Assembly: GCA_030146605.1 (NCBI GenBank)
Contig: JASLBO010000513.1
Location: 1-27,039 of the forward strand
DNA from: Sphingomonas sp.
Lineage (GTDB): Bacteria; Pseudomonadota; Alphaproteobacteria; Sphingomonadales; Sphingomonadaceae
DNA length: 27,039 bases
Reading direction: 5' to 3'
Shown here: one piece after another, positions 3,814-20,150 of the stretch
Numbering within the stretch: position 1 is the first letter of the stretch
How the letters are laid out: the number at the start of each line of letters is the position of its first letter
Notes under the pieces: generated by a model
Seen by the model: the letters and a program-made list of their open reading frames with translations, nothing else
Database searches by the model: none
What the model was told of the DNA's origin: nothing
Made by a program: the position numbers and the translations under genes

Positions 3814-3829
3814 TCGAAGAGTATGGCGC

Positions 3830-4493: not shown

Positions 4494-4513
4494 CAGGCGC
4501 GACAACGCGCCTG
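4494..4513. terminator. Hairpin between convergent genes, candidate bidirectional terminator
   Basis: CAGGCGCG-ACAA-CGCGCCTG is a perfect 8-bp stem with a 4-base loop. It lies between the end of the plus-strand regulator (4318) and the end of the minus-strand hydrolase gene (4529). Neither side has a clean T-run, so intrinsic termination would be weak; placement is the main argument. The rest of 4319-4528 holds no recognisable gene. Confidence 0.5.
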
Positions 4514-4528
4514 AGAGACATGCCCTCT

Positions 4529-5791: not shown

Positions 5792-5888
5792 CGGTTTCCC
5801 CCCCAATGGTCCTCGGACCAACTGCATGGCGCCTTGTCTGACCGCAAGCGGCAGGATCATAAGGATGACGGACAGTCGCGTCGCTGGC

Positions 5889-6541: not shown

Positions 6542-7723
6542 TCAACCCGCCGCGGCGTTGCCCAGCGTCCGTCGGGCGGCGCGCCATGCCGGCACCGCGC
6601 CGCCGAGCACCCCAACAATCACTGCAAGGGTAACAGCCTGGACGATGTCGTTCATGGTGAGATCGAACTTGAACATCACCTGTGTGAGGTTGCCGCCGAT
6701 CGTGCTCGCGCTCCGCCCTTGCAGGAACAGGCCAGCCAGCGCCACCCCGAGCCCCGAGCCGAGCAGCACGAGCAGCACCGCTTCCACCATCGTGCTCACG
6801 AAGATCGAGGGCCCGCGAAAACCGAGAATGCGCAAAGTCGCGATCTCGGTCGCGCGCGTCGATACCGAAGTGAACATGGTGTTGAGCGCGCCGGCAAGCG
6901 CGCCGACCGCCATTGCGATGCCCAGCGGCCAGCCGACGAACAGGATGAGCTTGCCCATGTTCCTCGCCTGCGCGGCGAAATAATCCCGCTCGGAGCGGGC
7001 CACGAGTTTCAGGCTGGTATCGGCGGCGAGGTAGCGCTGCAGCGCGGCGAGCGCGGAAGCATCGCTCAGCCGCGCGCGCACCGATTGCACCGCCGCGCTC
7101 GACCCGAAGAACTGGCCGACCAGTTTCCGGTCGGTCCAGACCTCCGATTCCATTGCCGATCCGCCGGCTTCGAACACGCCGACGACGCGCCACGCCATCC
7201 CGGCGAGACGCACGCTGCCGCCGAGCTTGAGGTCGCGGTAGCGCCCGGCGAGCGCACTGCCGACGACGAGCTCGTTTCGGCCGGGGGTGAACATGCGCCC
7301 GCTCGCGAGGCGTGCCAGGGGGCGGACCGCCAGCCCCTGCGGCTCCATGCCGCGCAAGGTCACACTCGACTCGGCGCCGCCGTCCTCGACTGCGCTGATC
7401 GTCGCGAAGCTCTCGGCCGAGAGCAGCGGCCCGTGCTCGCCGGCGGCGACTCCCGGCGCATTGTCGAGCCGCGCGAGCCGCGCGGTATCGATCGCGCTGT
7501 TGAACTCGGACGCCGATCCCTCGGCGAGGATGATCGCGCTCTGGTCCGATCCAGTGCCGGCAACGGTCGCGCGGAAACCCGATGCCATCGCCAGGAAACC
7601 GAGCAGCACCAGCGTGGCAAGCGCGATGCTCAGCACCGTGGCGGACGACATGCGCGCGCGCGCGGGGAGCCCGAGCATGGCGATGCGTGCCACTGCGGCG
7701 ATCTGTTTGACACTGCCGGTCAT
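6542..7723 (-). CDS. ABC transporter permease, FtsX/MacB type (second permease)
   Basis: This 393-aa membrane protein has the FtsX-like layout: one N-terminal helix (about 28-48), a large extracytoplasmic domain (about 50-265) and three C-terminal helices (about 270-290, 318-342 and 360-382). The C-terminal domain holds typical sequence such as TEIATLRILGFRGPSIFVS. I use ATG 7723, which shares one base with the upstream permease stop (TGATG) and has GGGAGG a few bases earlier; a GTG lies one codon before. It is the last gene of the export operon. With the adjacent permease and ATPase it forms a heterodimeric MacB/Lol-like ABC complex that works mechanically across the periplasm. Substrate unknown; peptide export or immunity is inferred from context. 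Confidence 0.88.
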   Translation of the reverse strand: MTGSVKQIAAVARIAMLGLPARARMSSATVLSIALATLVLLGFLAMASGFRATVAGTGSDQSAIILAEGSASEFNSAIDTARLARLDNAPGVAAGEHGPLLSAESFATISAVEDGGAESSVTLRGMEPQGLAVRPLARLASGRMFTPGRNELVVGSALAGRYRDLKLGGSVRLAGMAWRVVGVFEAGGSAMESEVWTDRKLVGQFFGSSAAVQSVRARLSDASALAALQRYLAADTSLKLVARSERDYFAAQARNMGKLILFVGWPLGIAMAVGALAGALNTMFTSVSTRATEIATLRILGFRGPSIFVSTMVEAVLLVLLGSGLGVALAGLFLQGRSASTIGGNLTQVMFKFDLTMNDIVQAVTLAVIVGVLGGAVPAWRAARRTLGNAAAG

Positions 7724-8883
7724 CACTTCCTCCCCAATGCTTCGACGATGTTGACACGGCTTGCCTGGAGCACCGGCAGGATGCCGGTCAGCAGGATCAG
7801 CAGCGCCACGAGCCCGGCCGCCATCGCGAGTGTTGACGTGCCCATCGCCATGCCGGGCAGCACGTCCTTCAGCGCGGCGCCGACCGCCGAGACGATCAGT
7901 GCCGCCACGCTCATGCCCGCGACCGCGCCGGCGATCGCGATCAGCGCGACTTCGCCCGCGAAGATCCGCGCCACACGCAGCCTCGAGAAGCCGAGCGTCT
8001 TGAGCACGCCGATCTCACCGGTGCGCTCGCCGACCATGAAGATCAGCGTGTTGCCGACGACGCAGAGGATGACGACGAACGCCGCGCCGACGATCAGCCG
8101 GACGATCAGCATCACGTCGCCGATCTGCGACAGGAAGGCGCGGCCAAGCGCAGCCTCGCTCTGCGTGCGCGTCGCAGCTGCCGAATTGGCGTATCCGGCG
8201 TCGATCACGCGGGCCATCGCATCGTTGGCGGCGAGGTCGCGGCCCTGGACGAGGATCCAGTTGATGCGGTCGCGCCCGGTGATCAGGGCTTCGTTGTAGT
8301 AAGCGAAGTGCCCGGCCATCGCCAGTTCGCTGCCGCCGGGCTGGGCGGCGGTATAGATGCCCGCCACGGTGAAGCGCCACGCGCGCGTTCCGTCCTCGCG
8401 CAGATCGTTGAAACTCTGCAGCGTGACCTGGTCGCCGCGCTTCCAGCCATAGCGCTCGGCCAGAGCGCGGCCGATCAGCAGGCCGTCCCGCGTGGCAAGG
8501 AAGCGGGCGCGGTCCTCGTCCGTCACCGTCACGACGTCCTTGGACACAGCTAGATAGGTTTCAGGCTCGACCATCACTGCCGAGACGATGTCCTTGGGCT
8601 GACGCCAATAGACCAATGCCATGCGCACCGGGCTCGAAACCGCGACATTGGCCTGGCGGGCGACATCGCGGGCATAGGCGATCGGCAGCGTCTGCTGGAA
8701 GCCATTGCGGTTGACCACCATCATCCGCTCGTGCGCGCCCGGCTGGTCCTCGAGCCGGAACGCAGTGCCGACGGCACTCAGCACCCCGAAGATCAGGAAG
8801 GCGACGGCGATGCAGCCCACCATCAACAGCATGCGGACCGGATTGCGAAGCGCGTTGCGCCGGATGAGCGTGGCCTCCCTCAT
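7723..8883 (-). CDS. ABC transporter permease, FtsX/MacB type (first permease)
   Basis: The 386-aa product begins with a short basic region and a membrane helix (about 17-40), followed by a periplasmic domain of roughly 210 residues and three C-terminal helices (about 260-285, 305-335, 350-372). The segment GERTGEIGVLKTLGFSRLRV is the typical FtsX cytoplasmic loop that contacts the ATPase. ATG 8883 overlaps the ATPase stop (ATGA) and its own stop overlaps the second permease start, indicating coupled translation at balanced levels. It is related to the neighbour but not a recent duplicate, consistent with a heterodimer. Function in efflux of a peptide or damaged envelope component is inferred. 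Confidence 0.88.
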   Translation of the reverse strand: MREATLIRRNALRNPVRMLLMVGCIAVAFLIFGVLSAVGTAFRLEDQPGAHERMMVVNRNGFQQTLPIAYARDVARQANVAVSSPVRMALVYWRQPKDIVSAVMVEPETYLAVSKDVVTVTDEDRARFLATRDGLLIGRALAERYGWKRGDQVTLQSFNDLREDGTRAWRFTVAGIYTAAQPGGSELAMAGHFAYYNEALITGRDRINWILVQGRDLAANDAMARVIDAGYANSAAATRTQSEAALGRAFLSQIGDVMLIVRLIVGAAFVVILCVVGNTLIFMVGERTGEIGVLKTLGFSRLRVARIFAGEVALIAIAGAVAGMSVAALIVSAVGAALKDVLPGMAMGTSTLAMAAGLVALLILLTGILPVLQASRVNIVEALGRK

Positions 8884-9596
8884 GCCGCGATCGCTTCGTC
8901 GACGAAGCGTCCCTTTTCGAGGTGGAGCACGGTGTCGGCCGCACGCGCTGCGACGGGATCGTGAGTAACCATGACAATGGTCTTGCCGAGCTCGTCGGCG
9001 AGCAGCCGTAGGATCTCAAGCACTGCGTCGGCGCTCGGCCGGTCGAGGTCGCCCGTGGGCTCGTCGGCGAGGATCAGCTTGGGATCGGCGACCAACGCCC
9101 GGGCGATCGCGACGCGCTGCTGCTGCCCGCCCGAAAGCTCGCGCGGGCGATGTCGGGCGCGGTCTGCCAGCCCGACCACGTCGAGCGCAGTATCGACGCG
9201 GCGGCGGCGCTCTTTCGTGCTCATCGGGTGGAGCAGCAGCGGCAGTTCGACATTCTGTGCTGCAGTTAGCATCGGCATCAGATTGTAGAATTGGAAGATG
9301 AAGCCGAGCGTCTGCGCGCGCCACCGGGTCAGGCCCGACTCGCTGTAGCTGTCTATCCGCTCGCCATCGACGGCGAGCATGCCACTGTTGGGGCGATCGA
9401 TGCCGGCGAGCATGTTGAGCAAGGTCGTCTTGCCCGATCCTGACGGCCCCATCAGCGCGACGAAGCGTCCGCGCGCGATCGTCAACGACAGCTTGTTGAA
9501 GATCGGCACTTCGGTGTTGCCACGGCGATAGCTCTTGGAGAGATCGACGATGTCGATGAGATTGTCGGGGGCGGGAACGCGCTGCATGAAGTTCAC
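8880..9596 (-). CDS. ABC transporter ATPase, MacB/LolD-like
   Basis: The 238-aa ATPase has all canonical motifs: Walker [11 protein letters not shown]-loop in [11 protein letters not shown], signature LSGGQQQR, Walker [12 protein letters not shown] and switch His in VMVTHDP. The Q-loop region and the DEPTGDLD sequence place it in the MacB/LolD/FtsE group that pairs with FtsX-like permeases, which follow directly. The start is GTG 9596, inside the adaptor stop (GTGA), with GGAG 7 to 8 bases upstream. It powers the complex from the cytoplasmic side of the inner membrane. LolD itself is less likely because a HlyD-type adaptor precedes it, an arrangement typical of tripartite efflux pumps. Confidence 0.92.
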
Positions 9597-10639
9597 GAAC
9601 GGTCTCCTTTGGGAAGGAATGCCGCCTTGGCGGCCATTTGGGGGAGGATGCGCGGATCGCGGCGCACGAACGCGATGTTGACACGCACGGTGGCTCGGTT
9701 TCGGTCCGCCGACGGGACGATTGCGGCGACTGCGGCCTCGAACCGCTCGCCGGGAAGCGCATCGAAGGTGAGAACTACACGCTGGCCCGAGCGAATGCCG
9801 CTGATATAGGCTTCGTTGACATCGGCCTCGACCTGCAGGCTGCCCATGTCGACCAGGGTCACCACGCCGGTGCGGGTGAACCCGCCGCCCGCAGAGATCG
9901 GCGACACGAGCTCGCCGACTTCGGCATTCTTCTCGATAACAACTCCGGCGAAGGGGGCGCGGATCGCGTAGCGGTCAAGCGTTACGTGGGCCGCACGGAC
10001 TGCCGCGGCGGCACCGCTCAGCGCGGCTTCAGCGGCGGCGATGCGGGCGCGGAGCACGCCGTTCTCGGACTGGCTTTCCTCAAGCGCCGCCATGGTGGTG
10101 AAGCCGCGCTGGCTGAGCGCCTGGCGGCGCGCGAGCGTGGCAGACGCCTGGCGATGCTGGTGACGCAGCGCCGTGACCGTCTGTCGCGCTTCGGCTTGGG
10201 CGGCGATCGCCCCGTCGAGCGCCGCGCGCGCATCCGAATCGTCGACCCGGGCAATGACCTGGCCGGCCCGGACATGGTCGCCCTCGGCCACGAGCACCTG
10301 ACGAAGCTGGCCTGTGACCTGCGAACCGACGGTGCCGCCGCGCTGAGGCACCACGAATCCGGCAGCAACCAGGCTGGCAAGGGGCGCATCGGGAGCCGGG
10401 GCAGCGGCGCGCGCGGGGGCGGTGGCGGTGGCGGCCGGTGCGGCCTTGCTGCGGCCGAGCAGCGATGCCGTCGCGACGCTGCCAACAGCGAGGCTCACCA
10501 GCCCGGTGAGGAGCACCGGCAGCAGGGACCAGCGCCCGTGGCTCTCGACGGGGATCGCAAGCGCCGGCCTGGGCATGGCCGTGCTCGGCTCGCGATCGAG
10601 CCGAAGCTCGCGCAGCCGATCCGCTACGGTGGCGGTCAT
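9593..10639 (-). CDS. HlyD/MacA-type periplasmic adaptor (membrane fusion) protein
   Basis: The 348-aa protein has a cytoplasmic N-terminus of about 35 residues, one membrane helix (about 36-58, LLPVLLTGLVSLAVGSVATA) and a periplasmic part with the usual adaptor layout. The first lipoyl half is near 90-140 (VTGQLRQVLVAEGDHVRAGQ), a coiled-coil hairpin rich in Ala, Gln and Arg spans about 145-215, and the second lipoyl half follows (YAIRAPFAGVVIEKNAEVGE). A beta-barrel domain completes it. It should link the inner-membrane ABC pump to an outer-membrane channel; no TolC homologue occurs in the window, so the host's own channel would be used. It starts in ATGA overlap with the preceding gene. 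Confidence 0.9.
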   Translation of the reverse strand: MTATVADRLRELRLDREPSTAMPRPALAIPVESHGRWSLLPVLLTGLVSLAVGSVATASLLGRSKAAPAATATAPARAAAPAPDAPLASLVAAGFVVPQRGGTVGSQVTGQLRQVLVAEGDHVRAGQVIARVDDSDARAALDGAIAAQAEARQTVTALRHQHRQASATLARRQALSQRGFTTMAALEESQSENGVLRARIAAAEAALSGAAAAVRAAHVTLDRYAIRAPFAGVVIEKNAEVGELVSPISAGGGFTRTGVVTLVDMGSLQVEADVNEAYISGIRSGQRVVLTFDALPGERFEAAVAAIVPSADRNRATVRVNIAFVRRDPRILPQMAAKAAFLPKGDRS

Positions 10640-11127
10640 TGGTCGTCCTCCGTCCTGCGCTCACAGCGGGCCCGTGCGGCTGCCCAGACCAGGCCTGCGC
10701 CAACGCCCGACACGATGTGTGTCGCGGTTGCGACCACGCCCGCGTTCCACAACAAACTGCCGCTGGTCGCTGTGAAATAGTCGAACGGGGCGGCGCAGAG
10801 GAGCACGGTTGCGGCGACGAGGCCGGCGACCATGCCGGTCGTCGGGCTTCCACCGGGCAGCGACAGCCGCGGCAGCACGTAGAGCAGGAGCAGGAACAGC
10901 GCGCCGAAACCGATCTTCGCATAAGGGGGCACCTTGTCGGCGATCATGAACACCGCCCTCGCGATGGCGCCGGCTTCGGTCTCGCTACCCACCTGTAGCC
11001 ACCGCACCGCCGCGGATACATAAGTGAACGACGCCCAGCCGATCATCCATCCGATCAGCGTGCATTTGTGCGCCGCCAGACCCGTAAGTGCCGAGGCGTG
11101 AGCCTGCGGTGTCAACGGCGCGGTCAT
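10636..11127 (-). CDS. Small integral membrane protein of unknown function in export operon
   Basis: The 163-aa product has about four hydrophobic helices (near residues 22-42, 70-88, 95-117 and 128-150) with short loops, and a charged C-terminal tail (ARARCERRTEDDQ). No enzymatic motif is seen. It lies between the ABC half-exporter and the HlyD-type adaptor and overlaps both neighbours by 4 bases (ATGA at each end), so it is made together with them. Given this placement it could be an immunity protein, an accessory subunit of the exporter or a membrane-bound processing factor; none of these can be proven from the sequence. I do not recognise the family. Confidence 0.75.
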   Translation of the reverse strand: MTAPLTPQAHASALTGLAAHKCTLIGWMIGWASFTYVSAAVRWLQVGSETEAGAIARAVFMIADKVPPYAKIGFGALFLLLLYVLPRLSLPGGSPTTGMVAGLVAATVLLCAAPFDYFTATSGSLLWNAGVVATATHIVSGVGAGLVWAAARARCERRTEDDQ

Positions 11128-12920
11128 GCGGACTTCTCCTCAAGGAACTGGCGATGGACGAGGCGGCGGTAGAAACCGGTGCCAGACAGCAGGGACTCGG
11201 GCGCGCCGCGTTCGACCAGTTCGCCACCGTCGAGCGCGACGATCTGATCCATCGCCTCCAGCCCGGTCATACGGTGCGTGACGAGGATGCAGGTGCGGCC
11301 GCGCATCAGCGCTTCGAGCCCCTGCAGGACGAGATGGGCGTTCTCCTCGTCGAGGCTCGAGGTAGCTTCGTCGAGGAGCAGGATCTCGGGATCGCGCAGG
11401 AACATCCGCGCGATGGCAAGTCGTTGGCGTTCACCGCCTGATAGCCGCGCACCGCGCTCCCCGATCTGAGTGTCGAGCCCCTCGGGCAACGCCGCCACGA
11501 AGCCGTCCGACCGCGACGATGCGAGCGCGCCGGCGATCGCTTCTTCGCCGACCGGCCGGTCGATCCCATACAGCAGATTTTCGCGGACGCTGCCCGACAG
11601 CATGGCCGAAGTCTGCGCGACATAGCCGATCCGCGCGCGCCATTCGCGCAGCGGGATCGCCGTGATGTTCTCGTCGCCGTGGCGGATGCTGCCCTGATCG
11701 GGCGTATAGAAGCGCTCTACCAGGGCGAGCAAAGTCGACTTGCCCGAGCCGCTGGGACCGATGATCGCCGTGCGGCTGCCCGGCGCGAAGAGCAAGCCGT
11801 CGAGAGACAGCGCCAGTCGATCGCCATAGCTGAAGCGGACCCGATCGAAGGTCAGCGCCTTGGGCGTACGGACTGCGGCGCGCGACGTGACCGGTGCCGA
11901 CCATTCAGGGGCGAGGCGCAGCACTTCGGCGAGCCTGGTTGAGGCGCCGCGTGCAACCGAGAGCTGCGAGAAGAAACTGGTGAGCTGCGCCAGCGGCCCG
12001 ACGACAGTGAAGATGTAGAGCAGGAACGCCGTCAGCGTACCCGAGGACAAGGTCCCGGCCGCGACGCGCATCCCACCATAAGCGAGGATCGTCACCAGCG
12101 AGATCGTCACTGCCAGCGTCATCACCGGGCTGAGCGCAGCCTCGATCCGGGCAGAGCGGCAGCCGAGCGCGAACAGGGCGAAAATGCCGGAATCGGCACG
12201 GCGGCGCTCGCGCTCCTCGGCGCCGAAGGTCTTTACCATCCGCATCTCGGCGAAGACCTGGGTCAGGCGCCCGCTCAGCCGGGCAGTCTCGTCCTGGGTG
12301 CGATAGGCCACCGCCGCCATGGTCAGCATCACCGGCAGCATTGCCAGGAAAGCCGCGCCGATCACGCCGAACAATATGCTGGCGAGCGCGGCGTCCATCG
12401 AGAACAGCACCAACGCCGCGCCGACGAGCAGCAGCACTGCCGAGGCGGCGTTGAGGCTCTCGCGCGAGATGAGCTGGGCGACGGCCTTGGTGTCGTTGAT
12501 CACGCGGCTGGTCACTTCGCCGCTGGCGAGCCCGTCCAGATACGTGACCGGTGCCGCCACCAGCCGCTCGATCGCCGCGCTGCGCAGCCGGGCGCCGAGC
12601 GAAAGCCCCGCCCGGCTGGTGAGGTAGCGCGCGACCGCCGCGGCGACGGCGGCGGCGAGGAGTACCAGCACCAGCTGGACGATCACCGGCCGGTCGAACA
12701 GCCCGCCGGAAGTCGCCGCCATCGCGCTCGAGCCGTCAACGATCGTACGGGTCAGCAGCGGAAAGCCGAGCGTGCCGCCCACCTCGACCAGGGTCAGCAT
12801 CGCCGCGACGGCGAGCGCGGCGCGATCAATGCGGACATGGCCCAATACCGAGAACAGATCGGCATAGGATGCAGGACCCGTCTTGGGGACTGCGGCGTCG
12901 GTGGGCGTTGCGCGGGTCAC
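11124..12920 (-). CDS. ABC half-exporter with fused permease and ATPase domains
   Basis: Start GTG 12920 overlaps the cupin-like gene stop (GTGA) and gives 598 aa; an open frame continues upstream to 13160, but that part overlaps the neighbour and is not protein-like. A six-helix exporter domain spans about residues 35-320 and the ATPase follows: Walker A GPSGSGKST near 400, signature LSGGERQRLAIARM near 500, Walker B ILLLDEATSSLD near 520, switch His in LVTHRM. There is no N-terminal C39 peptidase domain, so this transporter would not itself cut a double-glycine leader. The family includes MsbA and peptide exporters such as McjD. Next to short peptide genes and their putative modification enzymes, export of the peptides is the most natural role. 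Confidence 0.92.
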   Translation of the reverse strand: MTRATPTDAAVPKTGPASYADLFSVLGHVRIDRAALAVAAMLTLVEVGGTLGFPLLTRTIVDGSSAMAATSGGLFDRPVIVQLVLVLLAAAVAAAVARYLTSRAGLSLGARLRSAAIERLVAAPVTYLDGLASGEVTSRVINDTKAVAQLISRESLNAASAVLLLVGAALVLFSMDAALASILFGVIGAAFLAMLPVMLTMAAVAYRTQDETARLSGRLTQVFAEMRMVKTFGAEERERRRADSGIFALFALGCRSARIEAALSPVMTLAVTISLVTILAYGGMRVAAGTLSSGTLTAFLLYIFTVVGPLAQLTSFFSQLSVARGASTRLAEVLRLAPEWSAPVTSRAAVRTPKALTFDRVRFSYGDRLALSLDGLLFAPGSRTAIIGPSGSGKSTLLALVERFYTPDQGSIRHGDENITAIPLREWRARIGYVAQTSAMLSGSVRENLLYGIDRPVGEEAIAGALASSRSDGFVAALPEGLDTQIGERGARLSGGERQRLAIARMFLRDPEILLLDEATSSLDEENAHLVLQGLEALMRGRTCILVTHRMTGLEAMDQIVALDGGELVERGAPESLLSGTGFYRRLVHRQFLEEKSA

Positions 12921-13834
12921 GCGCGCAGGCTCTCGAGGCGGGCGAGCTTGTGCTGGGCCCAGCCGGCGACCAGCGCGCTCTCGCTGCGCGCGCCCCGCTC
13001 GAACACTGCCATCGTCTCTTCCAGATCCGGCTTGGTCGCGGCTATTGCCTTGAGCGCTGCGAAACGCACGCGCTCCGAGAGATGTGACCGTGCCGTCTCG
13101 GCCAGATAGTCCTGGGCGTTCTCGCCGCCGACCTGGGCGATCATCGGCATCAGCGAGCACATCGACATGCGATTGATCATGTTGCCGACGAAGTTGCGCT
13201 CGACGTCGAAGCCATATTGATCGACCACGCTGCCGCGCACGGTGAGCTCCATGATGTTGAGGCTGATCGACATGCTCTCGGGCGGTAGCTGATCATGGAT
13301 GTCGTAGCAGGCGCGGTAGAGCATCACTTTGCCCTCGCTTAGCGAACTCTTTTCCACGAACTTGAGATCTACTGGCTCGCCCGGATAACCGGCGGTCTCC
13401 TCATAGTCATAGGTATAATAGTTGCTGCTGTAGCCGGGACCGAAATGCCCGACGGTCAAGAAGTTGAACGAATGATCGTGCGGGTGGTGATAGAAGAACT
13501 GCTCGGGCCCGCTCGCCCGCAGGATGTGGTCCTTGTTCGACGGCCAGAAATTGGCGCGCAGGAAGAAGGTCTGCTGGCGCTTGGTGGGCGCGTAGAGCAT
13601 GATGACCTGCGGTCCGTAGTTATTCGAGCCGTTTCCGATTCCGGTGCGTTTTTTCAGCTCGTCGAGCGCCATGTCGCCAAGGAAGCTGCGGTTGTTGCTG
13701 AGCCGCTTGAGCATCGGCGCCGCTGCAACCATTTGATCGTGATCAGAGGTGTCGATATTCTCGTCGTGCAGATACTCGATGATTTCGTCGAGCTCGATCG
13801 CGTCGGTCTGCGGAGAATCGATGACTAGTGGCAT
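12917..13834 (-). CDS. His-rich cupin-like protein with HEAT-like C-terminus (module 2)
   Basis: The 305-aa soluble protein starts at ATG 13834 with AGGAG 8 to 9 bases upstream. Its core resembles a cupin barrel: YGPQV and FLRANFWPS lead to FFYHHPHDHSFNFLTVG at 113-129 and later YRACYDIHDQLPPESMSISL, with N193 just beyond. His119, His121 and His180 could form a metal-binding triad; the usual cupin Glu is not evident. A GPGY segment and a run of Tyr (YYTYDY) follow the first His motif. The last about 65 residues look like HEAT/Armadillo helices. The paralogue at 15848-16774 keeps nearly every one of these motifs. A non-heme iron oxygenase-type role on the peptides is inferred; no family name comes to mind. 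It is coupled to the exporter gene by a GTGA overlap. Confidence 0.75.
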   Translation of the reverse strand: MPLVIDSPQTDAIELDEIIEYLHDENIDTSDHDQMVAAAPMLKRLSNNRSFLGDMALDELKKRTGIGNGSNNYGPQVIMLYAPTKRQQTFFLRANFWPSNKDHILRASGPEQFFYHHPHDHSFNFLTVGHFGPGYSSNYYTYDYEETAGYPGEPVDLKFVEKSSLSEGKVMLYRACYDIHDQLPPESMSISLNIMELTVRGSVVDQYGFDVERNFVGNMINRMSMCSLMPMIAQVGGENAQDYLAETARSHLSERVRFAALKAIAATKPDLEETMAVFERGARSESALVAGWAQHKLARLESLRA

Positions 13835-13858
13835 GGTGACGTCTCCTATCGGTGAGTG

Positions 13859-14839
13859 TCATTCGGCCGCGATGGCCGGCATTTCGTCGCTGAGCATTTC
13901 GATCGTCCGCTGCGCTGCGCGGCGCACTGCGGCCTGCGGGTCCCGGTCGCGCATGCGCTCGAGATGCGGCCAGGCCCGCTCGAGATCGAGGCCGAGATAT
14001 TCGCGCATGGTGTGCCAGCGGACGTAGTGCGACGGATGCTCGAGCAGGCGCTCCATTTGCTCGCAGCTGTCCTGGCGGCCGAACAGGCGCATCGCGGTGG
14101 CGAGCATCTGAAGTCTCGTCGGCTCTTGCGCGGGCGAGCTGGCGCCGACCATCCGGCGCGTATCGAAGTCGAACTCGAGCGCCATCGGCATCCCGCCGCG
14201 GTACATCTGGATCTGCAGCACCAGCGCGTGCGATCCAGCCTTGGCCGAATATTCGAAGGATTCATTGGCCTTGAAGTGGAGAGAGTCGCCGGCCTTGCAG
14301 TTGAAGCGGTCCCCCTCCTCGAAGCGAAGGTCGAGCGTGTGAAGGTCGTCATCGTCGCCGAAAGTCGGGATCCTCCACGACTGGAGTGGAAATTCGTGCG
14401 AGCGGAAGAATTTGAGATACGTTTCCTGTCCGCCGAAAGTCAGCGTGCGTCGCTCGCCGTAACGCTGCTTGGCGAGATCGATCTCGAAACCGTCGAGCGC
14501 CAACAGCATCGCGGTGAACTGGTCGGTGGAGGCGAGCACCATGCCGCCGAAGAATTCGCCGCCGATCGGCTGAAACGAAGAGCCGTAAAAGGGATTGCGG
14601 TCGGCGCAGCGCTTCTCTTCGGCGACGATCGCCTGGATGCGGTCTTCGGTGAAGAAGACGTCGCACAGGCGGAACACTTCGGCCGGCGTCATTTCTTCGT
14701 TCGCCGCCAGAATACGCTTGAGATCACCGAAACCTAGATAGTCATTGTAATAGCTGACGCTCCGCTTGTTATCTTCCAGCAGACCGGGACGGAACTCGGG
14801 GGCCGTCACCACCGCCATGACATCCTTGAGATTCTTCAT
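13859..14839 (-). CDS. HEAT-like partner protein of the cupin-like enzyme (module 2)
   Basis: I use ATG 14839, with GAGGGAAA upstream, giving 326 aa; an in-frame GTG at 14872 is possible but lacks a ribosome site. The N-terminal 110 residues are helical and acidic. The middle (about 145-235) is beta-rich and barrel-like (GDSLHFKANESFEYSAKAG, ALVLQIQMYRGGMP). The C-terminus has HEAT-like helices containing YVRWHTMREYLGLDL and MRDRDPQAAVRRAAQRT. The gene at 16762-17739 is a distant paralogue: it shares the FxxGM segment, the barrel and a C-terminus with RWH, RDP and RAA in the same order. Each copy sits directly before a cupin-like gene, implying a two-protein complex. It lacks a clear His metal triad, so it may be a substrate-binding partner. 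Confidence 0.72.
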   Translation of the reverse strand: MKNLKDVMAVVTAPEFRPGLLEDNKRSVSYYNDYLGFGDLKRILAANEEMTPAEVFRLCDVFFTEDRIQAIVAEEKRCADRNPFYGSSFQPIGGEFFGGMVLASTDQFTAMLLALDGFEIDLAKQRYGERRTLTFGGQETYLKFFRSHEFPLQSWRIPTFGDDDDLHTLDLRFEEGDRFNCKAGDSLHFKANESFEYSAKAGSHALVLQIQMYRGGMPMALEFDFDTRRMVGASSPAQEPTRLQMLATAMRLFGRQDSCEQMERLLEHPSHYVRWHTMREYLGLDLERAWPHLERMRDRDPQAAVRRAAQRTIEMLSDEMPAIAAE

Positions 14840-14889
14840 GTCGTTTCCCTCATGCCGATCGGAACGGTTCACCCGATCCCGTCAGGTGT

Positions 14890-14921
14890 TTGCGGGCGCG
14901 GCCAACGTGCCGCGCCCGCAA
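14890..14921 (-). promoter_or_regulatory. Strong hairpin between peptide C and its enzyme genes
   Basis: The minus strand carries TTGCGGGCGCGGC, a 6-base loop, and GCCGCGCCCGCAA: a perfect 13-bp, almost all G-C stem starting 4 bases after the peptide C stop. No U-run follows, so it is unlikely to be a full terminator. In peptide-product operons such a stem commonly limits read-through or protects the upstream mRNA so that precursor outnumbers enzymes; that role is inferred here. The first peptide module has an equivalent stem. Confidence 0.7.
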
Positions 14922-14925
14922 GCGA

Positions 14926-15078
14926 TTACTCGGCGCTGACCGCGTCGTTGGTGACCGCGATCACGACGCCGATGATGATGCCGGCGATGACCTGGCCGGC
15001 GACGACCGGCGTGTGGCGGGCCGAGCCGGGAGCACCGACTTCGAGATCGAGGGCGGGCAGGTTGTTGGTATCGAACAT
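14926..15078 (-). CDS. Peptide C: 50-aa putative precursor peptide
   Basis: ATG 15078 has a strong AAGGGGAAA ribosome site. The 50-residue product begins MFDTNNLPALDLEVG. It shares NLPALDxEVG with peptide B encoded just upstream, which looks like a recognition or leader block. A short spacer (residues 16-24, with Arg21-His22) follows, then a very hydrophobic stretch VVAGQVIAGIIIGVVIAV (25-42) and a polar end TNDAVSAE. It contains no Cys. Size, tandem duplication with B, the strong ribosome site and the hairpin after the stop all fit a ribosomally made, exported peptide, either modified or membrane-active. It is equally possible that it is a small membrane protein. No known precursor family was recognised. 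Confidence 0.78.
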   Translation of the reverse strand: MFDTNNLPALDLEVGAPGSARHTPVVAGQVIAGIIIGVVIAVTNDAVSAE

Positions 15079-15101
15079 GGAATTTCCCCTTGTTGAGCGT
15101 G

Positions 15102-15254
15102 TCAGAGTTGATCGACTTCTGCGAAGAAGATCGCGCCGATGATAGAAGCGATGCCGGCGGTGAGGCTGCAAATGACAGCCTCGCCACGCTGTTCAACGAG
15201 CATACCAACTTCAAAGTCGAGCGCAGGCAAGTTATGTACTTGATGATTGCTCAT
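15102..15254 (-). CDS. Peptide B: 50-aa putative precursor peptide
   Basis: This 50-codon gene starts at ATG 15254 behind an AGGAG ribosome site and stops 23 bases before peptide C. The N-terminal half reads MSNHQVHNLPALDFEVGMLV and shares NLPALDxEVG with peptide C; the spacer carries EQRGE, and a hydrophobic stretch follows at about 26-45 (AVICSLTAGIASIIGAIFFA) with a single Cys29, ending EVDQL. The conserved front and divergent hydrophobic back are the usual signs of a leader/core pair. It is the first gene after the winged-helix regulator and has a palindromic candidate operator 44 bases before its start. Whether any residue is modified cannot be seen. Confidence 0.75.
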   Translation of the reverse strand: MSNHQVHNLPALDFEVGMLVEQRGEAVICSLTAGIASIIGAIFFAEVDQL

Positions 15255-15297
15255 ATTCGATCTCCTGTTATTGGGCCATAAGCCCCGATCTACACCG

Positions 15298-15318
15298 TGT
15301 CGGCAATCGTTGCTGACA
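15298..15318. promoter_or_regulatory. Palindromic candidate operator upstream of peptide B
   Basis: On the plus strand TGTCGGCAA-TCG-TTGCTGACA forms an inverted repeat of two 9-base arms with a 3-base centre; 8 of 9 positions pair. It lies between the stop of the winged-helix gene (15341) and the peptide B start (15254), in an 86-base gap. The length and symmetry suit a dimeric winged-helix regulator, and the adjacent 15341-15835 protein is the obvious candidate to bind. On the minus strand TTGTCA overlaps the distal arm and could be a -35 element, but no convincing -10 box was found at the right spacing. Confidence 0.6.
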
Positions 15319-15340
15319 ATTAGAATGTGTCATTACTGAC

Positions 15341-15835
15341 CTATGCGGTCAATGCGTTGTAACTGTTGTTACGCTCAACTTGAGACCATTTCCGCGGCGC
15401 GCCGGGCCCACGCGCAAAGGTGCGCGCCACTTCGAGGAAATAGCGCTCCAGCGCTGCGCGTGAGTCAGGGCTCAGCTCGACCCAGGTGCGGCGACCGTCG
15501 CACGCGTCGGGTTCGCTGCTGAGCGTGCCCGTCTCGATCAGGTTGCCGACCCAGCGCACCCCGGTGCTGCGCGGCACGCCCGCGGCCAAAGCAAGGTCAG
15601 AGATGGAGACCCGCACACCCTTGCGCTCTGACAGATAGAGGTCGAGCAGCATGTCCCATACCGGGTCGGCCATGTGGAAGTCGGCGAGGAGCCGGCGCTG
15701 CAGGCTACGCGAGCGTGCGATGTCCGCCGCGATGCGGCCGCAGCATTCGGATTCCGACGGCTCGCGCTCAGCGGTGCCCCAGCTAAGCGTGGCCTGAAAT
15801 GGAGCATTCGTGGGCAGGGTGATATGCACGAGCAT
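15341..15835 (-). CDS. MarR-like winged-helix regulator inside the peptide cluster
   Basis: The 164-aa protein starts at ATG 15835 with GAGGAGG about 8 bases upstream, 12 bases after the first cupin-like gene. Residues 54-135 hold the winged helix: MADPVWDMLLDLYLSERKGV, VSISDLALAAGVPRSTGVRW and the wing RRTWVELSPDSRAALERY. It is paralogous to the regulator at 3830-4318, most strongly in the first helix and the recognition helix. The N-terminal 30 residues are unlike the other copy. Its position, between the two peptide modules and just before the palindrome in front of peptide B, suggests local control of the cluster; activator or repressor cannot be told. Confidence 0.83.
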   Translation of the reverse strand: MLVHITLPTNAPFQATLSWGTAEREPSESECCGRIAADIARSRSLQRRLLADFHMADPVWDMLLDLYLSERKGVRVSISDLALAAGVPRSTGVRWVGNLIETGTLSSEPDACDGRRTWVELSPDSRAALERYFLEVARTFARGPGAPRKWSQVERNNSYNALTA

Positions 15836-15847
15836 TGCAGCGCCTCC

Positions 15848-16774
15848 TCAATGAACGGATCTCTGAATCCATGGACGCCCGGCCTCGACCGCGGCACATT
15901 GGCGTGCGGCCATCCGGGCGATGAATGGGTTGGCGTCGCGCGCGCCGCGCTCGAACACCGCGAGACGGTCCTCCAGGCTGGTTTGAGCCGAGGCGAGCGC
16001 AGTGATCGCGCTGAACTGTATCCGGTCGCTCGGATGAGACGCGGCAAAGGATTGCACGAGATCGCGGCCATCGCCGCCGCCCAGCTGCGCACACAGTGCC
16101 AGCAGCGGCTCGACCGCGCTGCGCGTCAGATGCGCCTCAACCGTTTTGCTTTCGGCATCGAAGCGATACTGATCTCGAAAGCTCAGGTGCGGCGCGCGCT
16201 CCATGATGTTGAGCGAGACCGACAATTCGTCGGCGGGGAGCTGGGCATGGACGTCGCGATGCGCGCGGTAGAGCATGATCTTGCCCTGCTCGAGCCGCGA
16301 TCTCTCGACGAAGCGCAGATCGGCTTCGTCGCCAATGGCGCCGGCGAAATTATCATAGTCATATTCATAATAATCGCTCCAATAGCCGGGGCCCATGTAG
16401 CCCGCGGTCAGAAAGGAGAAATTGTGGTCGTGCGGCACGTGGTAGAAAAATGCCTCATGGCCGTTGTCTTGGAGCAATCGATCACCCTCGGATGGCCAGA
16501 AATTCGCGCGGATAAAGAAGTCGCGCGCCTGATGCAGGATCACTACCTGTGGCCCGTAGACATTCCTCGCGCTCTGATCGCGACAGCGCTGCTTGAGCTC
16601 TTCGACGATAATATCAGCCAGAAAATCACGATTGTTGGCGAGCGCCTTGAGGCCGTCGCCAAACGACGCGAAGCAATCCTCGTCGCGCGCGTCGAAACCG
16701 CCGGCTTCCAGCGCTTCGACAAGATCGCCGAGTTGGGCGCGGTTTTGCGTAGCGGTTTCGATCACGCGTGGCAT
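15848..16774 (-). CDS. His-rich cupin-like protein with HEAT-like C-terminus (module 1)
   Basis: The start is ATG 16774 (GGAGG 7 to 8 bases upstream), giving 308 aa; the longer open frame up to 16918 lies inside the upstream gene. It keeps the motifs of the copy at 12917-13834 in order: NNRDFLADIIVEELKQR, YGPQV, FIRANFWPS, FFYHVPHDHNFSFLTAG, GPGYWSDYYEYDY, DLRFVE, GKIMLYRAHRDVHAQLP, SVSLNIME and DQYRFDAE. The His cluster HVPHDH plus the later His of DVHAQLP could bind iron or another metal in a cupin barrel. The C-terminal about 70 residues are helical repeats with FERGARDANPF, again matched in the other copy. It overlaps the HEAT-like partner gene by 13 bases. Enzymatic action on peptide A is inferred. 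Confidence 0.75.
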   Translation of the reverse strand: MPRVIETATQNRAQLGDLVEALEAGGFDARDEDCFASFGDGLKALANNRDFLADIIVEELKQRCRDQSARNVYGPQVVILHQARDFFIRANFWPSEGDRLLQDNGHEAFFYHVPHDHNFSFLTAGYMGPGYWSDYYEYDYDNFAGAIGDEADLRFVERSRLEQGKIMLYRAHRDVHAQLPADELSVSLNIMERAPHLSFRDQYRFDAESKTVEAHLTRSAVEPLLALCAQLGGGDGRDLVQSFAASHPSDRIQFSAITALASAQTSLEDRLAVFERGARDANPFIARMAARQCAAVEAGRPWIQRSVH

Positions 16775-17739
16775 GCGCTGGCCTCCATCGCGAGCACGCC
16801 GAGCGCGTTTCGCGCAGCCGCGCGCAGGTCGGGATGCGGATCCCGCTCGGCCATCGCATGGAGCCGCGCCCGCGCGCGGCTTTCGTTCAGACGGAACAGT
16901 TCGGTGGTCGCGTGCCAACGCAGGAAGAAGCTGTCGTCATGCGTGAAGGGCTCGACCACCGCGTCGTCCTCGCTGCGCCCAAGCGTAGCGAGGAAGCTGA
17001 GCAGCATCTGGCTGCGCGAGGCACCATCGCTCGTGCTGCACGCCGCGACGGCTGTAAAATCTTCCGAATCATATTCCACGAGCAGCGGTGCGCGATCGAC
17101 CAGTATCTCGGCCTGCAGTACGACGATGTCAGCGATTGCATGCTCGATGACATAGCTCTGGGTGCGGCCGTCGAGCGTCAGGATGTCAGCGTCTCCGAGC
17201 GCCCGATGCCCCGCCGGGCGACATGCGAGGCCGTCGTCGAGACTGAAATTGCCCGATACTTGCGGTGCATCCCACATCCGCAGCAGCGCGCCGCCGGCGC
17301 GCAGAAACTTCTGCACCGATACGGTGCCGGTGAAGGTGATTGCCGCGGGGCCGCGCGGCCGCATCTTCTTCGCGGCGAGCACATCCACCGGCAGGCTGTT
17401 CAGCGCGATGTCGACATGGCGGTGCGCGAACACTGCCATGCCGCGTTGGAAGCCGTTGCCAGTCGGCGCGAGCGGTGGTTCGAAATAGGCGTCGCGAAGC
17501 GCGGCCTGCGCCATCGCGGCGATCCAGCCATCGATCCAATCGGTATCGGCAAAGGCGGCTTCCACGACTTCGCGAACGGAATCGACGGTTGGATCAGTTA
17601 GCGCATCGAGTGCGTCATGAAGAGCCGCCAGCGCCGGCTGCAGACGCCAGTGGTGCGCCGGCAGGCTCGTCGGCAGCGCGCCGCGGCGGACTTGCTCCGC
17701 CTGTTGGAAATAGTGCCGAAGTTCTGGTCCTGAAATCAT
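16762..17739 (-). CDS. HEAT-like partner protein of the cupin-like enzyme (module 1)
   Basis: The 325-aa protein opens at ATG 17739, with GGAG about 10 bases upstream. The N-terminal half is helical; the segment FQRGMAVFAHRHVDIAL resembles FFGGMVLASTDQFTAML of the module 2 copy. A beta-rich centre follows (VQKFLRAGGALLRMW, ADILTLDGRTQSYVIEH). The C-terminus has helical repeats with FFLRWHATTELFRLNE and RDPHPDLRAAARNAL. Similarity to 13859-14839 is distant but collinear, strongest in the C-terminal RWH and RDP segments. It precedes and overlaps the cupin-like gene, as in module 2. Function is unknown; a two-component peptide-modifying or peptide-binding complex fits the repeated pairing. Confidence 0.7.
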   Translation of the reverse strand: MISGPELRHYFQQAEQVRRGALPTSLPAHHWRLQPALAALHDALDALTDPTVDSVREVVEAAFADTDWIDGWIAAMAQAALRDAYFEPPLAPTGNGFQRGMAVFAHRHVDIALNSLPVDVLAAKKMRPRGPAAITFTGTVSVQKFLRAGGALLRMWDAPQVSGNFSLDDGLACRPAGHRALGDADILTLDGRTQSYVIEHAIADIVVLQAEILVDRAPLLVEYDSEDFTAVAACSTSDGASRSQMLLSFLATLGRSEDDAVVEPFTHDDSFFLRWHATTELFRLNESRARARLHAMAERDPHPDLRAAARNALGVLAMEASACHA

Positions 17740-17846
17740 ACATCATACTCCAGCGCCAGGCACGATTCACGGTCGCCGCGCCCTGCTGACAGCGGCGGGA
17801 TCGATGCATGGTTTGTACGCAGACGTCTTGTTCGAGCGGATTGGAG

Positions 17847-17874
17847 GGGGCCGTGGCGGGCTCGCCACGGCCCC
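17847..17874 (-). promoter_or_regulatory. Strong hairpin between peptide A and its enzyme genes
   Basis: The minus strand has GGGGCCGTGGCG, a 4-base loop and CGCCACGGCCCC, a perfect 12-bp G-C-rich stem about 14 bases after the stop of peptide A and roughly 107 bases before the HEAT-like gene. The next bases are ctccaatc, not a U-run, so partial termination or mRNA protection is more likely than full termination. It mirrors the stem after peptide C. Confidence 0.7.
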
Positions 17875-17888
17875 TTCGCTGTCGGCCG

Positions 17889-18029
17889 CTATCCTCCGAT
17901 GAGATAGGTGCCGACGATCACGCCGATGCAGACGGGTCCGCCGACCTCCTGGCGCGTGACATGCCCGCAAAATCCAACGGGGGTACGCAGAGTGAAAGCG
18001 GAAGCGTGCACGTTGCTTGTCTTGGTCAT
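17889..18029 (-). CDS. Peptide A: 46-aa putative precursor peptide
   Basis: ATG 18029 is preceded by GGGGGAA at a good distance, giving a 46-residue product; the frame reaches 18095 but the extra 22 residues have no better start. The N-terminal half is polar (MTKTSNVHASAFTLRTPVGF), with Cys21 and His23 next; then TRQEVGG at 27-33 is followed by a hydrophobic Gly-rich tail PVCIGVIVGTYLIGG that ends in GG. Overall size and the polar-front, hydrophobic-back pattern match peptides B and C, but the NLPALDxEVG block is absent. A GG pair sits in front of the tail, yet the cluster exporter has no C39 peptidase domain. It heads the first enzyme module. Confidence 0.7.
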   Translation of the reverse strand: MTKTSNVHASAFTLRTPVGFCGHVTRQEVGGPVCIGVIVGTYLIGG

Positions 18030-18165
18030 CGATATTCCCCCGAAAGCAGCCGGCGGGACCGGCCAGTACCTCCCAAGTCGTCGTCTCTGGCGCACAAGTC
18101 TCCGCTTCGCCGGTCGCGTAGTATCGCGTTCGGCGGATCGGTATCCGTCTGAGACTTTCGACGAA

Positions 18166-18185
18166 GACGGCTTTTCAATGCCGTC
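18166..18185. repeat. Short inverted repeat between anti-sigma gene and peptide A
   Basis: GACGGC-TTTTCAAT-GCCGTC is a perfect 6-bp inverted repeat with an 8-base loop, in the 238-base gap between the membrane protein stop (18268) and the peptide A start (18029). It could be a weak terminator of the sigma/anti-sigma unit or a protein-binding site for control of peptide A. A second small palindrome, CTCAAA-TTTTT-TTTGAG, lies nearby at about 18225. No clear promoter boxes were found in this gap. Confidence 0.35.
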
Positions 18186-18267
18186 AATCAGTTAGTCCCG
18201 CGGGAGTGGAAAACCTGTCGCAGTTTCTCAAATTTTTTTTGAGCGCGGGATTTGTTGGCGCGGCCCC

Positions 18268-18882
18268 TTAGGCGCCAAGCATCAGTTGATCGATCGCAGT
18301 CTCTCGGCGATGATCGTCCAGCACCTCCGAGAGCTGCTGGATGACAGCGCGTTGGCGCCGGAGCCGCACGAACAGGAATGCGATCGTGGCGGCGATTACG
18401 GCCAGGCCTAGCAGCGCCGACCAACTGAGCAGCGCGTTCGCCAGATGCGGGACAGGCGGGCGCCCATCGCGCTGGCTCAGCACTGCAAATACCATTCCCA
18501 GCAACGTCGCCGGTCCGAACAGCGCCAAGTCGAACAGCGTGCGGCGGACGCGGGCGCGGTATCGCCGTATTTGGCCTTCCAGGAAAGTTTCCCGGTCGCG
18601 CTGGTTGGCGCCCCACTCCACACGACGCAACCGATAGCGCGCCCGCGCCGACCACAATAGGAGGAGCAGGATCATCACGCCGACCGCGAGCGAACCAAGC
18701 GTGAATTTGCGCCAGATCCCGAAAACCACGAAAACGGTCAGGCAGGCTGCGACCAGCAATTCGGCCCGCTCGATCCATTGGGCGCGCCGCAGCACGCGCT
18801 CCGAAAGCGCCGACACCTCTTCCGGGGCATGCCGTACGCTACCGCGCCATAATTCGGATAGATCGTCCAACTCACCGGCCAT
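18268..18882 (-). CDS. Membrane protein, likely anti-sigma factor of the adjacent ECF sigma
   Basis: The 204-aa protein has a short cytoplasmic N-terminus of about 38 residues (MAGELDDLSELWRG and following) and four probable membrane helices near 40-58, 62-80, 115-137 and 150-178, ending in a basic, Gln/Arg-rich tail. ATG 18882 lies inside the sigma gene, which it overlaps by 11 bases in another frame, so the pair is co-translated. Sigma gene followed by an overlapping membrane-protein gene is the usual layout for ECF sigma and its inhibitor. No zinc-finger (ZAS) HxxxCxxC motif is present, so the anti-sigma role rests on gene order and membrane location only. Confidence 0.7.
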   Translation of the reverse strand: MAGELDDLSELWRGSVRHAPEEVSALSERVLRRAQWIERAELLVAACLTVFVVFGIWRKFTLGSLAVGVMILLLLLWSARARYRLRRVEWGANQRDRETFLEGQIRRYRARVRRTLFDLALFGPATLLGMVFAVLSQRDGRPPVPHLANALLSWSALLGLAVIAATIAFLFVRLRRQRAVIQQLSEVLDDHRRETAIDQLMLGA

Positions 18883-19372
18883 GCGCGCGCCCCATTTGCT
18901 CGACGAGCGCCGACTTTGCCCGTTGGCATCGGAGCATCGCGGCGTTGGCGGTGATCCCCAATGTCTCGCCGATCTCGATGAACGAAAAACCTTCCAGCAT
19001 TAGCGTCGCCGTCTCCCGCTGGGCCACGCTCAACTGCCGCATCGCCGCCACCAGTTGCGAACGTCGATCCGCGACGATTGCCGCTTCGTCAGGCTGCAGG
19101 TCGGCTGTGGCGAGCTCTTCGCCCAACTCTTCCGTAACAGGATTTCGCGCGCGGCGCGACACGTGCGTCACCGCCCGCTTCTGGGCGATGCTTGCGACGT
19201 AGGTCTTTAGGGAAGATTGGCCGCGAAAGGACGGCAGCGCGCGCCACACGGCAAGGACGATCTCCTGCTTGAGATCCTCCCGCTGGCTCGGATCAGCTTC
19301 ATAGGCGAGTGCTATACGCGAAAGTAGCCCTGAATGGGTGCGTATGACGTCATTGAAGCTCACATCGCTCAA
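18872..19372 (-). CDS. ECF-type RNA polymerase sigma factor
   Basis: The 166-aa protein has both ECF sigma regions. Region 2 lies near 10-75, with AYEADPSQREDLKQEIVLAV and SSLKTYVASIAQKRAVTHV. Region 4 is near 105-160, with LSVAQRETATLMLEGFSFIE and IGETLGITANAAMLRCQRAK. The start is uncertain: TTG 19372 has GGCGGG 8 bases upstream, while GTG 19360 has no visible ribosome site. It sits at the promoter-proximal end of the minus-strand cluster, so it may drive its own gene and the peptide modules, but no repeated ECF promoter motif was found by eye ahead of 19372 or peptide A. Confidence 0.88.
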   Translation of the reverse strand: MSDVSFNDVIRTHSGLLSRIALAYEADPSQREDLKQEIVLAVWRALPSFRGQSSLKTYVASIAQKRAVTHVSRRARNPVTEELGEELATADLQPDEAAIVADRRSQLVAAMRQLSVAQRETATLMLEGFSFIEIGETLGITANAAMLRCQRAKSALVEQMGRAHGR

Positions 19373-20150
19373 GACGTTTACCCGCCCCCGGACAACCAGC
19401 CACTCTCAGCGAACTAAACCGATCTGATGCCACAGGGAAGCGTTGTCGTGCTTGCCGAGTTCAACATACGCATTTGGCGAACGATGCAGGATCACCGGCC
19501 CTCCCGGCCCGCAACTGGGCGAGGGCTGCGTCGCATGGTCGCCGGTCGGCCCGGTGATCAAATCGCGTCGTCGCCTCGTCACAGGCTCCCGTCCTAAGTT
19601 CCAGGTGCGCACGACGATCGGTCGAGCTCTTGCTGCCCTTCGGCTACCCATCGGCGCACGCGCGCCGCGCTCGCCAAAAGCCGATGCTCCGGGTGCATTG
19701 TTGCTCGCGCCGAACCGTTTAGGCGCGCGGCACCCGCACGCTGCCAATCCGATTGCTCTTCTCAATCTCCCTGCTCCGCCCCTACGAGACGAGCGCGCCG
19801 GGCAAGGCTGCGTGCTCTGGCAGTCGATCCGTCTTTGCATGCGGCTGGGCCAATCGGGATCTTGCGGCCACGGCTTGCTTCCGTCGACTTGGCAAACGAA
19901 CCGTCAGCACGCCGTTGCGGAAATCCGCCCCTCGAGGACGCAGCCTCGGTCGCTTCGCTGGTCATCACGACGGGGCGTTGGTAGCCAAGCCTCCAAAGCA
20001 GAAGAAGCCGGCACCCGTTTATGCCATGAGCTACTGAGCACAAGGCGCGGACTCTGCGATCCGGCGAGCCCCGGCCGTTCGTGTAGCGGCTCATGTTTAA
20101 GCTGGCATCGTGGGGCGCCATCCGCGGCACTCGACCGAAGTTCTGTCAAC
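19373..20150. other. About 780 bases of degenerate sequence without an intact gene
   Basis: Open frames exist on both strands but are rich in Arg, Pro and Ser, lack ribosome sites and show no recognised family. One minus-strand fragment resembles an Hsp20 C-terminus (listed separately). Another frame near the sigma gene reads VVRTWNLGREP, vaguely like an endonuclease/phosphatase start, but nothing continues it. The stretch ends where the glycosyltransferase homology begins abruptly near 20150. The whole stretch looks like an accumulation of gene remnants at an island boundary. Confidence 0.45.
19882..19932 (-). pseudogene. Fragment resembling the C-terminal core of a small heat-shock protein (Hsp20)
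   Basis: The minus-strand frame encodes GADFRNGVLTVRLPSRR. The AxFxNGVLTVxLPxR pattern is the signature end of the alpha-crystallin domain. A stop codon lies about 10 codons upstream in the same frame and the N-terminal part of an Hsp20 is not found in any frame nearby, so this would be a decayed remnant. The stretch is short, so chance similarity is possible. Confidence 0.3.

Follow-up and report, generated by a model that had tools for sequence, protein, structure and literature searches.

Among described systems, the MNIO (DUF692) systems MbnBC, TglHI and ChrHI encode, beside a short precursor, a heterodimer of a non-heme iron oxidase with a substrate-binding partner, and in MbnBC and TglHI the partner protein binds the substrate peptide (available sections of PMC12141560). 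Among the thiol dioxygenases, ADO oxidizes N-terminal cysteines (available sections of PMC8503633), and 3MDO carries a Ser-His-Tyr catalytic triad (available sections of PMC10966181). Here we analyzed a 27,039-nucleotide stretch of DNA from Sphingomonas sp. (GenBank assembly GCA_030146605.1, contig JASLBO010000513.1), hereafter the window, which contains two modules of short peptide gene(s), a partner gene and a cupin gene. The modules resemble the MNIO systems in layout, but here the putative catalytic protein belongs to the cupins, and its partner is a degenerate homologue of it; DUF692 had no match in the four module proteins in Pfam or NCBIfam. The module genes are the following.

17889..18029, minus strand: peptide A, 46 amino acids, with a GGPVC-type hydrophobic core (open reading frame, peptide alignment, pN/pS)
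16762..17739, minus strand: partner 1, a homologue of partner 2, from a family without conserved metal ligands (open reading frame, BLAST, alignment)
15848..16774, minus strand: cupin 1, a putative three-histidine iron oxidase with a HEAT-like C-terminus, its ATG at 16774 overlapping partner 1 (open reading frame, alignment, tree)
15102..15254, minus strand: peptide B, 50 amino acids, leader HNLPALDFEVG (open reading frame, alignment)
14926..15078, minus strand: peptide C, 50 amino acids, leader NNLPALDLEVG (open reading frame, alignment)
13859..14839, minus strand: partner 2, a thiol-dioxygenase-like barrel with a HEAT-like C-terminus and no conserved metal ligands
12917..13834, minus strand: cupin 2, a putative three-histidine (H119, H121, H180) iron oxidase with a HEAT-like C-terminus

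The initial annotation had placed these open reading frames (ORFs) and read each module as peptide(s), partner and cupin, with an ABC half-exporter next; all its ORF positions agreed with the ORF list, and the order was confirmed in the window. Structure models were made for cupin 2 and partner 2, from which the folds of cupin 1 and partner 1 were read.

We consider it likely that each module encodes a ribosomal peptide, which it modifies oxidatively through a leader-bound, Fe/O2-dependent cupin pair, the core being oxidized and, in the window, the product exported. The metal, the use of O2, the heterodimer, leader binding, the nature and site of the modification, product export and regulation are what we infer, as follows. 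The two homologous cupin-plus-HEAT proteins would form a heterodimer that binds the leader IDxxxLPxLxTxxGxxGS, through the partner or through the pair as a whole. The cupin would act as an Fe(II)/O2 oxidase with its metal on H119, H121 and H180, and the partner, lacking metal ligands, would position the substrate, a role like that of MbnC beside MbnB and a division of labour modelled on MbnBC and TglHI. The pair would then oxidize the variable hydrophobic core, and the product of the window would leave through the ABC exporter together with the proteins of the HlyD/MacB genes; an extracytoplasmic function (ECF) sigma factor would probably control module 1.

The linkage of the genes was consistent across genomes. 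A contig scan gave 227 relatives, the best 80 of which, the closest third, were used and correspond to 77 loci. In 77/77 of these other-genome loci, every cupin was directly preceded by a partner ORF of its own strand, including L015 and L020, where a contig end cuts the partner short, and L038, where the cupin lies in two ORFs. Because all 77 repeat the partner-then-cupin order and the peptide genes are under purifying selection (see below), the arrangement goes beyond chance.

In the genome draws, at most 11 (199-genome draws), 5 (phylum), 6 (class of G496) or 5–6 (397-genome draw) candidates were scored per genome, so that all counts are lower bounds. Among 199 genomes of the S. gei family, the cupin (E ≤ 1e-3) was found in at least 74 and the partner (E ≤ 1e-5) in at least 73, all of them among the 74; no genome of the 199 had the partner only, and the genome with a cupin and no partner (G197) held merely a 100-residue cupin fragment. 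Adjacency was verified for the fetched loci, a subset of the 73 genomes. About one third of the sampled family genomes thus have the module. An overlapping draw from the family with one distant cupin gave at least 134/397 positive genomes, a phylum draw gave the cupin in at least 15/398 genomes (the S. gei family's own included), and a distant profile gave at least 2/369 genomes in the class of G496, G496 being one of the two.

The peptide genes were also tied to the partner. We trained a leader profile on 40 peptides from L030-L077 and searched with it 14,415 short ORFs in all six frames, just 591 of which lie upstream of a partner. Of its 66 matches at E ≤ 0.01, 65 preceded a partner gene on its strand by at most 1 kb, 22 of these in loci outside the training set, and one lay elsewhere. 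With training in reverse (13 seeds), 81 of 82 matches were so placed, 42 of them held out, and the remaining one was again the stray match of the first run (L014, 8809-8943), which lies within an over-extended partner ORF, ahead of its likely start. The initial annotation had reasoned that homologues occurring mostly without adjacent peptide genes would speak against a peptide pathway. The outcome was the opposite: 111/121 module entries matched a 53-seed profile (E < 0.05, seeds included). Five of the ten misses were truncated or split: L015 and L020, with their upstream sequence missing, partner fragments ending L084 and L085, whose full copies were counted elsewhere, and half of the split L098 partner. 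The other five (L012, L047, L124, L125, L126) have short hydrophobic-tailed ORFs, judged by eye. Four of five further distant loci had a profile match at E ≤ 1; the fifth, L152, had no same-strand peptide match at that level, merely an antisense 50-residue ORF. In L152 a Cupin_8 protein (3573-4520, Pfam E = 4e-41) lies ahead of the partner, with the antisense ORF (4650-4802, ..FVELDDVSIAGAD..) in between.

We collected 119 distinct peptides of 40–68 amino acids (lengths follow a trimming rule for start codons), which share the leader IDxxxLPxL(D/E)TxxGxxGS and continue into a variable, mostly hydrophobic C-terminus. L14 was kept in 113/119, G22 in 100/119 and P12 in 101/114. Over 14 pairs of peptide genes, the uncorrected proportions of synonymous (pS) and nonsynonymous (pN) differences were 0.37 and 0.073, respectively, a ratio of 0.20 (0.04 to 0.47 in single pairs). 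The ratio was 0.09 and 0.14 for peptide A against two relatives, 0.05 and 0.06 for B, and 0.00 and 0.27 for C. Given the overall pN/pS of 0.20, the peptide ORFs are coding and, judged at sequence level, evolve under purifying selection. A database search with 19 peptides returned 577 relatives (E ≤ 1), with no functional name among the 120 matches listed, and the window peptides plus two others had no match in NCBIfam, PHROGs or Pfam.

Peptides B and C agreed in 8/13 leader columns and in 4/25 core columns. Such a shared leader with differing cores, together with two or three peptides in some operons, is the pattern that a pathway for ribosomally synthesized and post-translationally modified peptides (RiPPs) would show. 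Peptide A was more remote (leader 4/12 with C and 3/12 with B; core 6/23 and 2/22, respectively). The contrast between leader and core was weaker for A and C, and it was absent for one pair in L008, whose cores were alike in 19/27 columns.

The partner and the cupin have one common architecture, a predicted thiol-dioxygenase-fold barrel with a HEAT-like tail. The predicted fold of cupin 2 was closest to cysteine and mercapto-acid dioxygenases, and the body of the partner 2 model was itself a thiol-dioxygenase-like cupin. The partner had first been described as HEAT-like, a description that holds weakly for its C-terminal part (HEAT_2 below the curated cut-off in all four proteins) but not for its body, a cupin barrel; a plain HEAT scaffold was ruled out by the partner 2 model. 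None of the four core proteins matched a Pfam, NCBIfam, PHROGs or PADLOC family above its cut-off. No thiol dioxygenase family (cysteine dioxygenase, PCO/ADO) was listed in Pfam at E ≤ 1 or NCBIfam at E ≤ 5, and a PDB sequence search with single proteins and profile A1 found weak unrelated matches and no thiol dioxygenase.

The cupin alignment held 118 distinct rows from the window and 127 loci, one of them a piece gapped at the key columns. H119, H121, H180, D178, Q182, S189, N193, W97 and Y135 were invariant in all 117 readable cupins, and six distant cupins (24–32% identity to the first of them) retained HxH, DxHxQ, S and N. An HxH...H pattern is typical of thiol dioxygenases, and from this pattern and the predicted fold H119, H121 and H180 were taken as the candidate metal site. 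In the partner alignment (119 rows), only M1, R274, W275 and L293 reached 90% conservation, and no histidine did. Since the cupins retain three histidines and the partners conserve none, the two proteins look like a catalyst plus a pseudo-enzyme. Such a seeming duplication of an enzyme into catalyst and pseudo-enzyme offers a clean case, with the partner as a testable candidate for a leader-binding subunit. One distant cupin, 234 amino acids long (L128, 5126-5830), lacks most of its HEAT-like tail and retains the three histidines, so the tail may be dispensable. The cupin is called 'transposase' in seven public records (P0001, P0024, P0025, P0034, P0070, P0075, P0100), which looks like a propagated misannotation, as the family models and gene context seen give the name no support.

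The nearest predicted folds also raise the possibility of a peptide thiol dioxygenase, a cupin that turns a peptide cysteine into sulfinic or sulfonic acid, as ADO and plant PCO act on N-terminal cysteines. Cysteine is indeed present in peptides A and B, and among first-set loci outside the chromosomal and exporter groups described below it occupies one column (C34) in 12/15 peptides. However, only 42/119 distinct peptides contain a cysteine, peptide C has none, and the 45 peptides of the chromosomal group conserve a Tyr followed by Asp/Glu instead (Y46 in 41/44, D/E47 in 42/43), together with D36 (41/45). The 3MDO triad, moreover, reads Ser-Asn-Met here: by-eye placement puts S191 (116/117), N193 (117/117) and residue 195 (M, L, I or V) at its three positions. 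We regard this explanation as quite unlikely, and pure cysteine oxidation as the sole account was demoted to a rival. The initial annotation had named a structural match to a known metabolic enzyme as a point against a peptide pathway; such a match exists in part, in the predicted fold of cysteine and mercapto-acid dioxygenases, but two of the triad residues appear changed by eye and the PDB sequence search reaches none of these enzymes.

The modules lie in different genomic settings. Counting the 77 loci and the window, export genes stand behind the cupin in 15/78 loci (L001-L008, L012, L022, L026, L033, L047, L068 and the window). This count was made by gene clusters; a motif-only count of ABC ATPases (10 loci) was too strict and missed Pfam-ABC genes in L008, L012 and L026. 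The order of the export genes varied, with HlyD first in L005 and L007, an outer-membrane factor first in L022 and an intervening gene in L047 and L068. L012 and L026 had ABC-2 permeases, as did L033 with a match under the Pfam cut-off, and the window had a fused ABC exporter. Because the exporter types differ between loci, exporters appear to have been recruited repeatedly. An ECF sigma homologue lay upstream on the same strand in 16/78 loci, the window included, and a 17th (L008) was distant and on the other strand.

In 47/78 loci the setting was different, chromosomal and exporter-poor: one or more genes for RuvX, DUF3089 or either of two 4HBT thioesterase families lay close by, often in the same order. 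The remaining 16/78 loci had neither export genes nor these neighbours. The chromosomal setting, together with the conserved D36, Y46 and D/E47 of its peptides, would fit a scaffold route, in which a core residue (for example of the Tyr-Asp/Glu pair) is oxidized and excised to yield a small molecule or cofactor. In pyrroloquinoline quinone and mycofactocin a peptide residue is oxidized and cut out, and 3-thiaglutamate would be a further parallel. This route, which fits the exporter-less copies best, is improbable in our view. No leader protease was identified beside the modules, exporter-less copies included, in analyses that included no profile search aimed at proteases; genes for possible later steps (AMP-binding, enoyl-CoA hydratase) stand near few copies; and in some exporter-linked copies one operon encodes several distinct cores, as would be more fitting for a secreted peptide. 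Both the thiol and the scaffold reading share ground with the proposed oxidation of the core, so that the confidence given to the separate readings sums beyond one.

In five chromosomal loci (L029, L037, L041, L057, L061; by Pfam in L037 and L057) an AMP-binding, acyl-CoA ligase-like gene lies downstream, followed in L037 and L057 by an enoyl-CoA hydratase-type gene, and this AMP-binding subset also has 4HBT thioesterases on its upstream side. These copies may have an acyl link. Two distant second copies (L131, 4095-7977; L135, 5707-9582) adjoin yidC, a membrane insertase gene by Pfam, sharing its strand and lying upstream of it in one case and downstream in the other, and the hydrophobic peptide may be linked to the insertase.

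These yidC neighbours, the exporters of the 15 loci and the hydrophobic, membrane-like C-termini of the peptides would also suit the main alternative, in which the peptides are unmodified hydrophobic bacteriocins or signals and the cupin and partner form a peptide-binding immunity, chaperone or sensor complex without chemistry. HEAT-like domains are, in addition, frequent protein or peptide binders. We nevertheless consider this alternative unlikely: the three histidines and D178, Q182, S189, N193 and Y135, an active-site-like set, are invariant in 117/117 cupins, while the partner keeps almost nothing.

The two modules of the window were paralogous, as had been noted from the sequence: cupin 1 and cupin 2 were 44% identical (E = 2e-94), and partner 1 and partner 2 were 25% identical (E = 1e-18). 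In the cupin tree, whose deep branches are in several cases open and whose long rows are unsure, cupin 2 fell into a group of 7 rows (support 100/97) with the second cupins from the other loci that have two modules, and cupin 1 joined single-module copies of the Sphingosinicella type (16 rows, 93/90, just under the star level of the tool), the peptides of which are mostly GGxxC. A recent tandem duplication of the modules was ruled out by this tree. BLAST likewise found cupin 1 to be 53–58% identical to the Sphingosinicella-type copies, compared with 44% to cupin 2. Because cupin 1 is closer to those copies than to cupin 2, the window, on this sequence comparison, unites two module types and is no recent copy of one; an old duplication could still lie behind them. 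Read by eye, core type seems to follow cupin clade, as a pair working on the core would predict, though common descent alone could explain it.

Around the modules, the window carries the following genes.

18872..19372, minus strand: ECF-type sigma factor upstream of module 1 (Pfam Sigma70_r2, E = 2.4e-13)
18268..18882, minus strand: membrane protein overlapping the sigma gene, from its position a possible anti-sigma factor (open reading frame; Pfam sub-threshold only)
15341..15835, minus strand: MarR-like regulator between the modules (MarR_2, E = 3e-4, below the curated cut-off), clustering with equally placed ORFs of L001-L004
11124..12920, minus strand: fused ABC half-exporter (ABC_membrane and ABC_tran), with a GTG start read from the sequence and its 5' end overlapping the cupin 2 stop
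10636..11127, minus strand: small membrane-like protein inside the export block (open reading frame, no Pfam match)
9593..10639, minus strand: HlyD-type membrane-fusion protein (HlyD_D23, E = 2.3e-20)
8880..9596, minus strand: ABC ATPase, MacB-type as judged by its neighbours (ABC_tran, E = 1e-35)
7723..8883, minus strand: MacB/FtsX-type permease (FtsX, E = 1.2e-11; MacB_PCD, E = 9e-8; both above cut-off)
6542..7726, minus strand: MacB/FtsX-type permease (MacB_PCD, E = 1.2e-15; FtsX, E = 3.6e-11; both above cut-off)

Several adjoining genes of the cluster overlap. The cluster had initially been bounded at 12917..18029; the genes within these bounds were as described, but its extent is larger, with the sigma and membrane genes upstream and the HlyD/MacB export genes downstream to 6542. 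An Rfam scan of 11000-20000 gave nothing reaching the gathering score. Past the export genes, an ORF at 4529-5860 on the minus strand has two Pfam matches, to a metallo-beta-lactamase fold (E = 3e-17) and to a bacterial SH3 domain (E = 1e-8), and a serine recombinase gene lies at 442-2061 (Pfam Resolvase and Recombinase). The MarR-like regulators at 3719-4318 and 15341-15835 have a DPxWDMLLDLY stretch in common. The nearest named protein to cupin 2 was from Sphingomonas psychrotolerans (96%), and the loci nearest to the window were those of S. gei and Sphingomonas sp. DG1-23. The S. gei genome (G001) carries a third copy elsewhere (L134, 7125-9113) with a chromosomal-type peptide (..VELDTRVAIHGAV..LIYELAPR).

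A full-text literature search, with most subscription journals outside its coverage, found among the papers listed neither a published description of the module nor a role of thiol-dioxygenase-branch cupins in making ribosomal peptides, and the words 'cupin' and 'dioxygenase' are absent from the available text of PMC9716278 on Sphingomonas gene clusters; the three-gene module is apparently undescribed. With somewhat less than even confidence, we propose a new RiPP class, in which a heterodimer of an active and a dead cupin of the thiol-dioxygenase fold would perform O2 chemistry on non-thiol core residues (e.g. Tyr-Asp/Glu), at one chromosomal position in many Erythrobacteraceae/Novosphingobium and linked with exporters in genera such as Sphingomonas, Lysobacter and Alteromonas. 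More than 100 peptide-enzyme sets are at hand for testing.

The module peptides recall double-glycine-leader bacteriocins in being short and hydrophobic, in having GG ahead of the core in some cases and in lying beside ABC/HlyD export genes, but their leader motif is distinct, a cupin pair stands beside the peptide, and the window exporter had only ABC_membrane, ABC_tran and other ATPase-type matches at E ≤ 1, with no C39 peptidase domain detected. PbsQ/BpmG of the biphenomycin-type RiPPs is a cupin-like hydroxylase and resembles the proposed catalyst as a cupin-type oxygenase with a RiPP core as substrate, but it performs late tailoring in a pathway with an MNIO, an arginase and a B12-radical SAM enzyme and is described as related to a JmjC-domain protein (available sections of PMC12257519). 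The thiol dioxygenases (CDO, 3MDO, mercaptosuccinate dioxygenase, PCO, ADO) share the predicted cupin fold of the module cupin, which differs from them by an extra HEAT-like domain, a homologous partner, an adjoining peptide gene and many putative Cys-free substrates. If the proposed reading is true, the thiol-dioxygenase branch of the cupins would join the makers of ribosomal peptides.

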